Program-made: the position numbers and the translations under genes
In this document: piece after piece, positions 5,761-10,588 of the stretch
How positions within the stretch are numbered: the stretch's first letter is position 1
Layout of the letters: each line of letters begins with the position of its first letter
Source of the DNA: Chloroflexota bacterium
GTDB lineage: Bacteria; Chloroflexota; Dehalococcoidia; GIF9; UBA5629
DNA: 64,000 nucleotides
Assembly: GCA_016875875.1 (NCBI GenBank)
Contig: VGOP01000001.1
Location: 204,501-268,500 of the forward strand
Direction of reading: 5' to 3'
The notes under the pieces: model-generated
The model's input: the letters and a program-made list of their open reading frames with translations, nothing else
The model's database searches: none
What the model was told of the DNA's origin: nothing

Positions 5761-6654
5761 ATGAAGAGTAGACATATCACTAGATTTGGCTCACCTTTAT
5801 CTCGTACTGGGGCACTCTACTGTGTGTCCGACCAACAAGGCCTAATTCAAATGGACATAGACATGAAACTTACACAGCTACATGCAAAAGGCGTGCTTAT
5901 TACTTCAGATGTCAAATCTCAAGTTAAAATTGACGTAAAACAGAAAAGTACAGAATACCATGATAAAGTAAACCAGTTAGGTATCCCAGACAAACTTAAA
6001 GATTTTTTCTTAATAAAAAGGAAAAGGGATGCTGAACATTGTTCCCGAGACATTGTAGTGTCAGAATATGATTTGTTCTTATTAATACATAATTGCTCTC
6101 AGGTTCACTTTACACACCGTTCCAAGTTTAGACAACATATTCCTGCTCATTTAAGAGTATCACAGACTGATAGAGAGCAAATGAAATTAGGAAGTCCAAA
6201 GAAATTTCTGACAAAGACTAGGTCGGGTCTGTTGGAACGGAGATATATCCATGTACACTTATTTGAATGCGGCTCAGATTGGCATTGCTTTTATTTCAGC
6301 CATCAAGACATTGAACCATCAGGTGCCAACCACTGGAGATACGGTTGCCATTTACACTATGTAAGCCATCTATGGCCAAAATTAAGGAAGAAGTGGGTCT
6401 GGAATCAGTTCAATAAACGCTTCACAGAAATATCCGGCAGCCTCCATATAAGATTTGAGCCTTTTGAGTTTCCCCACCCAGACGAAGCTAAAGAAAGTAA
6501 CCTAATTAATGGAAGTACGCTACCGCCATGGGCGGTTGCCTTTGACCCTAATCTAGCTTGCGGGTGCGGTGCAATTGCATTACCTGTAGCCCAAGTAGCA
6601 ACTAGAGGATTGTGGGTAATTAAAGTATCCCCACCGTACAAATCAAATCAATAA
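5761..6654 (+). CDS. Hypothetical protein with a His/Trp-rich core
   Basis: A 297-residue soluble protein of unknown function. Its most striking part is about residues 160-225, rich in His, Trp, Tyr and Cys, where YIHVHLFECGSDWHCFYFSH is followed by NHWRYGCHLHYVSHLWP. Such clustered His/Cys residues could bind metal, but I know no family that proves it. The first 60 residues look less ordered and the true start may be an internal ATG near 5851 or 5863. The gene is AT-rich like its upstream neighbours, and a perfect 9-bp hairpin begins five bases after its stop. It is best treated as accessory-region cargo. Confidence 0.55.
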   Translation: MKSRHITRFGSPLSRTGALYCVSDQQGLIQMDIDMKLTQLHAKGVLITSDVKSQVKIDVKQKSTEYHDKVNQLGIPDKLKDFFLIKRKRDAEHCSRDIVVSEYDLFLLIHNCSQVHFTHRSKFRQHIPAHLRVSQTDREQMKLGSPKKFLTKTRSGLLERRYIHVHLFECGSDWHCFYFSHQDIEPSGANHWRYGCHLHYVSHLWPKLRKKWVWNQFNKRFTEISGSLHIRFEPFEFPHPDEAKESNLINGSTLPPWAVAFDPNLACGCGAIALPVAQVATRGLWVIKVSPPYKSNQ

Positions 6655-7057
6655 GATAGCCGCGGCATTTCTTGCCGCGGCACCCTATAGACCTTCTGGT
6701 AGATAATCTTGTGCCAACCTGCTTAACAATAGCCTGAGGGATGAGGTCAGCCATCAACAGCTGAGCCAATGTTCGAGAATCAATAGCATCGGTCTTTACT
6801 TTGGCTGAGGCGATAGCTTTCACCTTGAGCGGATGAGCAAGAATTATCTCTTCCACAAGGTCTTTGGCTAGCTCATATGTCTTGGACCAATTCCAACATG
6901 ACTCTATTACCATCTTGGTGTCAGCCTTATCCCCTATGAATTCTCTAAATTCCTCCTCGATATGAGCCAACCTCTTTGCCTTCACCTCTCCGGTTTCTGT
7001 GTTAATTAGAGTTGCGTGATCGTATTGCTTGTGACAGTCTAAACCTATATACTTCAT
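6620..7057 (-). pseudogene. IS110-family transposase, N-terminal remnant
   Basis: The start at 7057 has a strong AAGGAGGTGC site, and the first ~109 residues match the RuvC-like DEDD domain of IS110 transposases: the aspartate in YIGLD, the glutamate in VIES, and the TDAIDSRTLAQLL block with paired aspartates. At about 6730 the family sequence stops, where the normal chain would continue into a coiled region, and 36 unrelated residues lead to a stop. The C-terminal Tnp20 half with the catalytic serine is absent, so the protein cannot transpose. IS110 elements usually lack long terminal inverted repeats, so the ends cannot be placed. It marks the right part of the accessory patch. Confidence 0.8.
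6659..6681. terminator. GC-rich hairpin after the accessory gene
   Basis: A perfect 9-bp inverted repeat (GCCGCGGCA at 6659-6667 and TGCCGCGGC at 6673-6681) with a 5-base loop starts five bases after the stop of the upstream gene. No T-run follows on either strand, so it may be a weak terminator or a structured end left by the neighbouring insertion sequence. Confidence 0.45.
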
Positions 7058-7156
7058 TTGGCACCTCCTTGTGATGTATTTGGGTTTTCCCAAGCCTAAA
7101 CTTTACACCATAGACTGGGGAGGTGCATTATTCTTTCATGTTACCTGAATTGTTAC

Positions 7157-8677
7157 CTAGTTCGAGCTTCTGTGGCGGTATTGGAGGGCTTCGGCGAGGT
7201 GGTTGGCTTTGATGATTTCGGCTCTATCCAGGTCGGCTATTGTCCGAGCCAGCTTGAGGACGCGGTGAAAGGCACGGGCGGTGAGGTGGAGCTGTTTCAT
7301 GGCTGTCCGTAGCAGGCTCTGGGCTGGGGGGTCTACACGGCAGGATTCCTTGACTTCTATGGGTGTCATCTCGGTATTGCACATAAGCTTTGTGCCTTCA
7401 AAACGTTTCTGCTGAATCTGCCTGGCGGCTTCAACTCTAGCTCGAACCTTCCCTGAACTTTCGCCTAAGGTTTCATCGGTAAGCTTTTCGTATTCAACTC
7501 GTGGAACTTCTATGAAGATGTCGATGCGGTCGAGAAGCGGCCCGCTTATTCTTTTCTGATAGCGGGATATCTCGCTCGAGGAGCATTTGCATTCTTTAAC
7601 CGGGTCTCCATAATAGCCGCAGGGACAGGGGTTCATGGCGGCTACGAGCATGAAGTTTGCCGGAAAGGTGACACTGCCTTGAGCACGGCTGATGGTGACG
7701 ACCTTGTCCTCTACAGGCTGGCGCAATGATTCCAGAGACATGTGGCTGAATTCAGGGAACTCATCGAGAAAGAGGACACCGCGGTGGCTTAAGCTTATCT
7801 CACCGGGTCTGGGCCAATGCCCGCCGCCAACCAGTCCGGCATGGGAGATTGTGTAATGGGGTGAACGGAAGGGACGTTGGTTTATAAGTGGTGTATCGCT
7901 TGAGAGAAGCCCGCTGACGCTATAGATTTTAGTCACCTCCAGAGCTTCGGCTAAGGTCATCATCGGCATTATAGAAGGCAGGGCGCGGGCGAGCATGGTC
8001 TTGCCACTGCCCGGCGGCCCGGACATGAGGATATTATGACCACCAGTTGCAGCTACTTCTATGGCACGTTTGGCATGTTCCTGGCCTTTTATATGGGCTA
8101 AGTCAACATGGGAAAAGTCGGTGGTGATGTCTCTCCAGTCTTTATCCGGTTGATATTGGGGGATTGATATCTCACCTCGAAGATGGCTGACCAGTTGGGC
8201 TAGCGATGTAGATGGGATGACCTTAATGCCGTCCAGCATGGAGGCTTCATTGGCATCATCAGCAGGAACAAAGACATCTGACAAGCCTTTATCCCGGGCT
8301 ATAGCTACCATGGGCAGGATGCCGTGGGTGTGGCGTAAGCTGCCATCTAAAGAAAGCTCACCGAGGAAAAGCGTTTTTGTTACCTCGGCATATACTTGTT
8401 CTGAGCTGAGCAGTATGCCGATAGCGATAGGCAAATCGTAGGCAGGGCCGGCTTTCTTAAGGTCAGCCGGTGCCAGGTTCACCGTAATTCGCCTGGTTGG
8501 GAAAATGCAGCCGGAGTTGCGGATAGCAGCACGGACTCGTTCTCTGGCTTCCTGTACGGCGGTATCCGGCAGGCCAACGACGGTAAAAGAGGGAAGCCCT
8601 GGAGAGATATCAACCTCTACTTCGACAATAGCTCCTTCCAGCCCGACTACGGCGCAGCTCATTACCTTAGCCAGCAT
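7157..8677 (-). CDS. comM: YifB/ComM-family Mg-chelatase-like AAA+ ATPase
   Basis: A 506-residue protein with the full ComM architecture. It has an N-terminal ChlI-like domain of Lon-protease fold (VEVDISPGLPSFTVVGLPDTAVQEARERV), an AAA+ core with Walker A GPPGSGKTM and Walker B LFLDEFPEF, the zinc-like cysteine group CPCGYYGDPVKECKC, and a C-terminal helical Mg_chelatase_C domain. ComM is a hexameric helicase that aids branch migration during natural transformation and recombination. The ATG at 8677 is preferred over a TTG six bases upstream because it sits seven bases after AGGAG. The CinA-Nudix gene lies just upstream on the same strand. Confidence 0.95.
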   Translation of the reverse strand: MLAKVMSCAVVGLEGAIVEVEVDISPGLPSFTVVGLPDTAVQEARERVRAAIRNSGCIFPTRRITVNLAPADLKKAGPAYDLPIAIGILLSSEQVYAEVTKTLFLGELSLDGSLRHTHGILPMVAIARDKGLSDVFVPADDANEASMLDGIKVIPSTSLAQLVSHLRGEISIPQYQPDKDWRDITTDFSHVDLAHIKGQEHAKRAIEVAATGGHNILMSGPPGSGKTMLARALPSIMPMMTLAEALEVTKIYSVSGLLSSDTPLINQRPFRSPHYTISHAGLVGGGHWPRPGEISLSHRGVLFLDEFPEFSHMSLESLRQPVEDKVVTISRAQGSVTFPANFMLVAAMNPCPCGYYGDPVKECKCSSSEISRYQKRISGPLLDRIDIFIEVPRVEYEKLTDETLGESSGKVRARVEAARQIQQKRFEGTKLMCNTEMTPIEVKESCRVDPPAQSLLRTAMKQLHLTARAFHRVLKLARTIADLDRAEIIKANHLAEALQYRHRSSN

Positions 8678-8720
8678 ATTCAACTCCTGAGATAGTTAAG
8701 GGGTGAAGGGCATATACATG

Positions 8721-9638
8721 TCATTTAATCACCCGTGACAGGGCTTTCGCCAGCCCGGGGACAGTCTCATATTTTTTGAGCTCTCTTGGTTTAATCCACG
8801 TAACCTCGGTATGTTCCCAATCGGTCTTGATTTTTTCCGGAGCCCTTACGTGAAAGAGGAATGGATGCACTATCCATTTTCGGTTCAGGCTTTTGTCGAT
8901 GATTTCTAACGGCTTGCCCCTTTTTACCAGCTTCAGGTCTTTTTTATACAGCTCTGTTTCCTCGCTGATTTCGGTGAATGCCTGGTCATCGGCGTTTGTC
9001 TCGATGTAGCCGCTGACGCCTGCCCAGCTTCTGCGGTAGGTGCTAACCCGACCGCTCCGTCTCAAAATCAGGATTTTACCACCATGCTCAAGGAAGCAGG
9101 TGACTACGTGCTTTTCTTCTAGAGTGCTATCGGTTACTTCGCTGAGGCATTTTTGCAGATACTCTTTTAATAGGGTCAATGCCATTTCAGCAGCCTTTTG
9201 CTTATTTTGCTCGCGGCTGTCTGAAAAGTGATGCTCTTTAGCCAGGGCCGCGTCTTTGGCTGATAGACCAAGATAGAATAATCCTACGGGTTTCCCCGGC
9301 GTGGCACCGGTGGGCCCGGCAATGCCGGTATCGGAAATGCAGATATCTACTTTGAGAAGCTTCCTGCCACCTTCAGCCATCTCTATTGCTGTCTGGGGAC
9401 TGACGGCGCCATGTTTTTTGATGGTCTGTTTTTTAACCTCAGCAATGTCTGTTTTGGCTTCATTGCTATAGGAAACGATTGAGCCTTTATAGTAGTCGGA
9501 GCTGCCCGGAACGTTGGTTATTTTATCGCTTATCCTGCCGCCGGTGGCTGATTCCACTGTGCCAATGGTCAGTAGTTTACCGGTTTTGGCCTGATATTCT
9601 TTGAGAAGCTGGGCGATCTCGTCTTGTAATGCTGTCAT
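8721..9638 (-). CDS. CinA/PncC-type amidase fused to a Nudix domain
   Basis: The 305-residue chain has two domains. Residues 1-165 are a CinA C-terminal (PncC, nicotinamide-nucleotide amidase) domain with VESATGG, VSPQTAIEMAEG and DTGIAGPTGATPGKPVGLFYLGL. Residues 176-300 are a Nudix fold with a degenerate Nudix box at 210-230 (the E..EE core kept as FTEISEETEL, the usual REx core Arg and the late Gly missing, two residues shorter than consensus). PncC hydrolyses NMN to NaMN and ammonia. Many Nudix enzymes split ADP-ribose or NADH, so a joint role in pyridine-nucleotide salvage is plausible. The start has AAAGGAGG three bases upstream. The Nudix activity is uncertain because of the altered box. 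Confidence 0.85.
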   Translation of the reverse strand: MTALQDEIAQLLKEYQAKTGKLLTIGTVESATGGRISDKITNVPGSSDYYKGSIVSYSNEAKTDIAEVKKQTIKKHGAVSPQTAIEMAEGGRKLLKVDICISDTGIAGPTGATPGKPVGLFYLGLSAKDAALAKEHHFSDSREQNKQKAAEMALTLLKEYLQKCLSEVTDSTLEEKHVVTCFLEHGGKILILRRSGRVSTYRRSWAGVSGYIETNADDQAFTEISEETELYKKDLKLVKRGKPLEIIDKSLNRKWIVHPFLFHVRAPEKIKTDWEHTEVTWIKPRELKKYETVPGLAKALSRVIK

Positions 9639-9712
9639 GTGCCTCCTTTTTCCGCCGATTATAAGGCTGGGCCAATTTTAACAGAAACTTAGATGTGTAA
9701 GCTAGGGGAGAT

Positions 9713-9762
9713 AGTCCTGAGATTGCCATGCCTTCGGCTCGCGATGACCATGGGGGAAAGAC
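9713..9762 (+). repeat. Intergenic repeat-like tract overlapping an annotated start
   Basis: The stretch from GAGATTGCC through GCCTTCGGCTCGCGATGACC has the wording of the short dispersed repeats of the form ATTGCC...CTCGCAATGACA that fill gaps in many bacterial genomes. Only one copy is seen here, so the call rests on resemblance. It matters because the longest frame of the next gene starts inside it. Confidence 0.35.
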
Positions 9763-10588
9763 TGCCATGGCGCGGAGACTCTCCAGCTTTCCTGATATAA
9801 TTAGGGCTGTGGAGGATTTGTCAGATACAATAACTTTTCTCGGCACGGCTGGTGCCCGGTTTGTAGTAACCAAGCAGTTTCTGGCCTCAGGTGGTGCCTG
9901 GCTGAATTTTAGTGGCACTGAGATACTTCTTGACCCCGGTCCCGGCTGTCTTGTTCACAGCGTTAAAAGGAAACTCGGTGCTTCCAAGCTGAAGGCTATC
10001 ATCCTGTCTCATAAACATTTAGACCATTCCGGCGACATCAATATTATGATTGAAGCTATGACCGAGGGTGGTTGGAAGCAGCGGGGTGTAGTATTCGCCC
10101 CATCGGATGCTCTTAATAATGATGCTGTAATTCTGCCGTACTTGCAAAATTATCCACAAAAGATAGATATTTTGTCTGAAGGCAGTTCCTATTCTATAGA
10201 GGATATCTCTTTTGAAACTCAGGTGAAACACAGACATCCTGTTGAGACCTATGGTTTTGTTTTCAGAACGCCGCGGCATACGCTTGCCTGGATTACCGAC
10301 ACCAGGTATTTCGATGGACTGTCCAGCTACTATCGGAGTGAGCTATTGGTTATAAATGTGGTCATGCTGGAGACTAAGGGTGGGATTGACCATTTGTCTA
10401 TACCTGAAGCTAAGCAGATAATCTTGGAAGTGAAACCGAAAATTGCCGTACTCACCCATTTTGGCATGTCAATATGGCGGGCTAAACCCTGGGAATTGGC
10501 ACAGAAGCTGAGCCAGGACACAGGTATTAAGGTTATTGCGGCTCGTGATGGCATGAGGTTTGATTTGGCGAAGTTGGAAGAGCTATAG
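9728..10588 (+). CDS. Metallo-beta-lactamase-fold hydrolase (RNase Z-like)
   Basis: The MBL motif HKHLDHSGD, a second-metal aspartate in AWITDTRYFD, KHRHPVETYGF and the C-terminal LTHFGMSIW give a complete di-metal site. The opening TFLGTAGARF..... and the GA.LNFSGTEILLDPGPG block resemble the RNase Z/phosphodiesterase branch of the superfamily. The substrate is unknown. The longest frame begins at ATG 9728, but its first ~30 residues lie in a repeat-like tract. The family core only begins near residue 33, so a GTG at 9809 or TTG at 9818 is a more likely start. The gene is divergent from the CinA-Nudix gene. Confidence 0.85.
   Translation: MPSARDDHGGKTAMARRLSSFPDIIRAVEDLSDTITFLGTAGARFVVTKQFLASGGAWLNFSGTEILLDPGPGCLVHSVKRKLGASKLKAIILSHKHLDHSGDINIMIEAMTEGGWKQRGVVFAPSDALNNDAVILPYLQNYPQKIDILSEGSSYSIEDISFETQVKHRHPVETYGFVFRTPRHTLAWITDTRYFDGLSSYYRSELLVINVVMLETKGGIDHLSIPEAKQIILEVKPKIAVLTHFGMSIWRAKPWELAQKLSQDTGIKVIAARDGMRFDLAKLEEL

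Follow-up and report, generated by a model that had tools for sequence, protein, structure and literature searches.

The PncC/CinA amidase occurs in several described architectures. The simplest is the single-domain protein, represented by AtCinA of Agrobacterium tumefaciens (2A9S) and YgaD of Escherichia coli. In AtCinA, activity is abolished by the substitutions S31A, Y58A, K63A, and R145A and falls by 94% with T105A and by 28% with C32A (PMC5384747). Full-length CinA, such as that of Thermus thermophilus (4ct8), has the domain order COG1058-KH-PncC, so that PncC is joined to a pyrophosphatase domain; Lys301 and Thr340 are its proposed catalytic residues (PMC4246079). Now and then CinA domains also occur joined to domains of other kinds, cases that one study noted and set aside (PMC3855486). 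The principle of coupling an NMN-handling enzyme to a Nudix domain has been described too, in NadM-Nudix, an NMN adenylyltransferase/ADP-ribose pyrophosphatase (Francisella 2r5w; PMC3680494). A PncC-Nudix fusion, on the other hand, is not described in the literature searched.

Such a fusion is encoded in the 64,000-nucleotide stretch of Chloroflexota DNA (class Dehalococcoidia) analyzed here, referred to as the window. How does it compare? It has the fold and catalytic residues of the single-domain amidases but differs from them in an Ala at the Cys32 position and a C-terminal Nudix domain. Like full-length CinA, it joins PncC to a pyrophosphatase domain, but one that is unrelated in fold and C-terminal rather than N-terminal, and the genome carries a separate full-length CinA. 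NadM-Nudix has an adenylyltransferase where the fusion has an amidase, and its Nudix domain belongs to another subfamily.

We explain the gene product as a bifunctional enzyme. The PncC half would convert NMN to nicotinate mononucleotide (NaMN) by means of a Ser30/Lys62 dyad, with NaMN feeding NAD synthesis, and would be the genome's intact NMN deamidase. The Nudix half would belong to a MutT/Ap4A-hydrolase-like family and work as an active pyrophosphohydrolase that depends on metal, its most likely substrate being a nucleotide or dinucleotide from the turnover of NAD or adenylates. As for origin, the fusion goes back to a pair of neighboring pncC and nudix genes, an arrangement common across the class. 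Computation shows the fusion itself, its conservation and fold, the intact residues, the gene-pair ancestry, the repeated fusion, and the loss of catalytic residues in CinA; the NMN reaction, the Nudix activity, and the Nudix substrate are inferred. We give this explanation as a whole a probability of about 0.68.

The fusion gene

The gene lies at 8721..9638 on the minus strand and encodes 305 amino acids from an ATG start codon that is kept in congeners. A possible ribosome-binding site, AAGGAGG (9642..9648, minus strand), is only 3 nt from the ATG. The amidase domain spans residues 20-161 (9156..9581, minus strand) and matches PF02464 with an E value of 2.1e-49 (167.6 bits against a Pfam cut-off of 23.5); this N-terminal part also passes the NCBIfam model TIGR00199, nicotinamide-nucleotide amidohydrolase domain (129.8 bits against 68.9). 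The Nudix domain, residues 180-300 (8739..9101, minus strand), matches PF00293 at 2.7e-5 (24.7 bits against 21.1), and no NCBIfam Nudix model scores above its cut-off on the protein. The two Pfam matches are separated by a linker, residues 162-179 (9102..9155, minus strand), where the structure model has its lowest pLDDT, about 81. Neither COG1058 (PF00994) nor a KH domain was found in the protein by Pfam.

Relatives were sought among 60 related genomes. About 20 members of the fusion genome's own family (f1), together with G030 from a sister family, f2, carry the same open frame at 53 to 87% identity, and the fusion is therefore genuine and not an assembly artefact. The domain matches and these in-frame relatives bear out the original prediction of a PncC-Nudix fusion without COG1058. 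Both halves are under purifying selection: against two congeners, dN/dS is about 0.09 to 0.12 for the PncC half and about 0.05 to 0.11 for the Nudix half. Counted against our explanation is that, elsewhere in the order, families f3 and f4 mostly manage with a lone PncC of about 170 to 180 amino acids (48 to 68% identical). No Nudix remnant follows the lone pncC genes examined in these families; unrelated genes come next.

Modeled with relatives in AlphaFold2, the fusion has a mean pLDDT of 90.5 and a pTM of 0.58, so that confidence is high within each domain but not in how the two are placed relative to one another. Foldseek matched the first half to CinA structures (2A9S, E value 3e-16) and the second to NudI, Ap4A hydrolase, RppH, and MutT, with NadM-Nudix 2r5w at a low TM-score. 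It had been considered that the second half might lack the Nudix fold altogether; the confident prediction and the PDB matches speak against this. A model of the Nudix half made without relatives reached a pLDDT of only 44 and was set aside. A viral fold search returned only generic PncC and Nudix proteins.

The amidase half and the fate of CinA

Does the amidase half carry the residues that matter? Mapped by alignment onto 2A9S, S30, Y57, K62, T104, and R142 occupy the catalytic places of AtCinA. These five catalytic or binding residues are kept in all 44 PncCs compared from the lineage, whether fused, paired, separate, or lone. Genome-wide checks, made family by family, found only two PF02464 proteins in the fusion genome, the fusion itself and a full-length CinA (L002) of 411 amino acids with COG1058, KH, and PncC domains. 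The amidase site of this CinA has Arg in place of the catalytic Lys. Because the amidase half of this CinA has lost the lysine, the fusion seems to be the genome's working NMN deamidase, the amidase role having apparently passed to it from CinA. The genome also encodes an NAD synthetase and an NAD-dependent ligase, the latter being a source of NMN.

The loss is not peculiar to this genome. Of the order's 37 full-length CinAs, 33 lack one or more of the five residues, through differing substitutions; the varied losses can be seen in L002 and L129 to L164. Since the residues are kept in the PncCs and lost in most CinAs, it would be PncC or PncC::Nudix that takes the amidase role, and PncC::Nudix most likely supplies NMN deamidation where the order's CinA has largely lost it. 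The takeover would not be absolute, because two fusion-bearing genomes, G007 and G016, have CinAs with all five residues, and because the PncC part of CinA is still under purifying selection in the fusion's genus and therefore retains some role. The other two intact CinAs belong to G006 and G011, incomplete genomes in which no fusion was detected.

The Nudix half

The Nudix box, residues 210-230 (8949..9011, minus strand), reads GYIETNADDQAFTEISEETEL. Relative to the classic GX5EX7REUXEEXGU it is two residues shorter, with a shortened loop, has R replaced by T and G by E, and lacks the Glu of GX5E. To this extent the box is degenerate, as had been noted from the sequence, but the metal-binding glutamates of REUXEE are present as E223, E226, and E227. 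In an alignment of 75 distinct family sequences, E223 and E227 are invariant and E226 is found in 73, while R194, W205, G210, E275, and W281 are invariant or nearly so. The short loop and the absent Arg are common to many of these relatives. Because the catalytic glutamates are conserved, nothing indicates that the activity has shifted away from hydrolysis, and catalysis by the Nudix half is likely. Might it instead be mainly a nucleotide sensor or scaffold that regulates the amidase? The departures from the classic box would fit such a role, as would the pairing of the family with IF-2B-like proteins, possible ligand-binding partners in which the isomerase Cys is missing (described below). 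The conserved glutamates, however, are unlike what lost catalysis would leave, and stand-alone forms of 140 amino acids are common, all of which makes a mainly regulatory Nudix half very improbable.

What, then, would an active Nudix half hydrolyze? A family profile searched against the PDB found M. mazei MutT, NudG, NudI, and Ap4A hydrolases at about 1e-7 to 1e-5. These MutT/NudG/NudI and Ap4A-hydrolase proteins are the nearest solved relatives in both sequence and fold, but the Nudix half is only about 20% identical to them and has a box two residues shorter and a signature of its own (W205AGVSGY, H258PF, and DWEH).

The original prediction had the Nudix domain replacing the ADP-ribose (or NADH) pyrophosphatase of COG1058, as a separately evolved pairing with the NMN deamidase. 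Precedents for such couplings exist in COG1058-PncC itself and in the fusion of NadM to a Nudix ADP-ribose pyrophosphatase (PMC3680494), and 2r5w is among the fold matches, albeit at a low TM-score. Yet the genome has the 411-amino-acid CinA with its COG1058 motifs, VGDN and GGLGPTQDD, so the Nudix half is not replacing a missing pyrophosphatase. Nor is a specificity of the proposed kind supported. An SQPWPFPxS array marks NADH-type Nudix proteins, and a downstream Pro marks ADP-ribose types; by eye, both are absent after the box. No family-specific NCBIfam match to an ADP-ribose or NADH pyrophosphatase was obtained, and the PDB neighbors are of the MutT, Ap4A-hydrolase, and RppH types. A replacement of COG1058 is thus improbable. 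A full CinA alongside an inactive fusion had been named as a combination that would count against the NAD-salvage idea; of the two, only the full CinA was found.

Origin from an adjacent gene pair

When 393 genomes of the class were searched for pncC-nudix and the DNA of the loci was read, pncC and the same Nudix gene were found as separate, adjacent, co-directional genes in 16 genomes of other families, including closed 1.4- to 1.5-Mb genomes of family f5. In these pairs pncC comes first, and 14 to 164 bp, mostly less than 60, lie between the matches. Further fusions occur in family f14 (L093, 328 amino acids) and in family f135 (L123, with a truncated Nudix match). In trees of each half, the f14 and f135 fusions sit amid unfused neighbors, apart from those of f1 and f2. 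AU tests rejected the grouping of every fused PncC in one clade (p 0.0003) and likewise that of f1/f2 with f14 (p 0.023) but not that of the f1/f2 fusions alone (p 0.36). Together, the trees and tests imply at least three independent PncC-Nudix fusions out of an ancestral gene pair. The functional tie between the halves that the original prediction proposed gains support from these recurrent fusions and from the gene adjacency elsewhere.

Genomic neighborhood

Directly downstream of the fusion, after a gap of 37 bp, is a comM/yifB-like gene on the same strand (7157..8683, minus strand; PF01078/PF13541/PF13335), a pair that is conserved in f1. The window also contains uvrC. In the f5 genomes (L105:2564-4273 and L106), an RNase PH gene follows the pncC-nudix pair on the same strand. 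A second reading of the Nudix half is that of a house-cleaning enzyme clearing away ApnA or nucleoside triphosphates that are damaged or in excess, the fusion then reflecting co-expression in DNA maintenance with no shared pathway. These neighbors fit it, as do the nearest families (NudG, NudI, MutT, and Ap4A hydrolase); the presence of NTP-sanitising enzymes among the closest solved relatives was counted against our own explanation, since such enzymes require no connection to NMN. However, comM and uvrC are not neighbors outside the family, and at least three independent fusions plus 16 adjacent pairs, all specifically with pncC, make for a tighter tie than co-expression would. We regard house-cleaning as unlikely, although it deserves to be kept in mind, and prefer a Nudix substrate in NAD/adenylate turnover.

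On the other side of the fusion is a divergent gene for a metallo-beta-lactamase (MBL)-fold hydrolase (9728..10588, plus strand; PF12706), which neighborhood clusters identify as a neighbor of pncC both within the order and in f13. It scores under the cut-offs for RNase Z and PhnP. The window also holds a truncated IS110-family transposase fragment (PF01548) at 6620-7093. Two other contexts were discarded: a link to tRNA 2'-phosphotransferase and its ADP-ribose cyclic phosphate, as the genome has no PF01885, and a role in defence, for which there was only a weak PADLOC match of 18.8 bits over the Nudix half.

A possible wider nucleotide-turnover module

The Nudix family is not confined to pncC loci. 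At an E value of 1e-8 it is present in 64 of 400 Chloroflexota genomes, mostly stand-alone. One recurrent partner is an IF-2B-like protein. Family f28, which belongs to the same class, has Nudix::IF-2B fusions (L084:1196-2491 and L086:2035-3378); they can be likened, by architecture alone, to Nudix::eIF-2B proteins such as Haloferax HVO_1934 (so annotated in PMC8576121), which are without PncC. In f63, of another Chloroflexota class, Nudix comes first, followed by IF-2B and then PncC, and three of the four loci have the last two fused as IF-2B::PncC (L062:1920-3341, L063:35-1483, and L070:85-1476, each with the Nudix gene directly upstream). In f13 and several further families, IF-2B adjoins the pncC-nudix pair, sometimes accompanied by MBL and TatD genes. 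In the fusion genome itself, the IF-2B-like gene sits next to a TatD gene on a different contig.

Two further arrangements were seen. A HIT-like region precedes the Nudix domain in L087:1336-2370 and L090:1918-3348, with HIT scores just below the Pfam cut-off; L088 and L089 resemble these by eye. Outside the phylum, the closest Nudix relative (54%), in a Thermosyntropha MAG (L053:5995-7202), overlaps an IF-2B-like gene and has no pncC nearby.

Could these partners form a ribose-1,5-bisphosphate pathway of Nudix, PhnP-like MBL, and isomerase? All 15 aligned IF-2B-like proteins have Ser in place of the isomerase's catalytic Cys, and since the corresponding C135S substitution inactivates the P. 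horikoshii enzyme (PMC5789824), such a pathway is unsupported. The partners also score just 107 to 136 bits against TIGR00511 (cut-off 314), and the MBL protein scores 31 bits against a PhnP cut-off of 272.

The links of Nudix to IF-2B and of IF-2B to PncC suggest a wider nucleotide-turnover module. It is possible, at slightly less than even odds, that PncC, this Nudix family, and the Cys-less IF-2B-like protein make up an undescribed Chloroflexota module, one that shows all three pairwise fusions and that would displace CinA as the NMN deamidase in the order.

Overall, NMN deamidation appears to have left CinA and, on three or more occasions, to have been rejoined to an unrelated, probably active pyrophosphohydrolase, while the amidase site of CinA decays across the order. 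The two functions of CinA would thereby be separated in nature, which helps in asking what either one does by itself. For the widespread Nudix family, it offers a concrete, assayable link to NAD turnover and to the IF-2B-like proteins.
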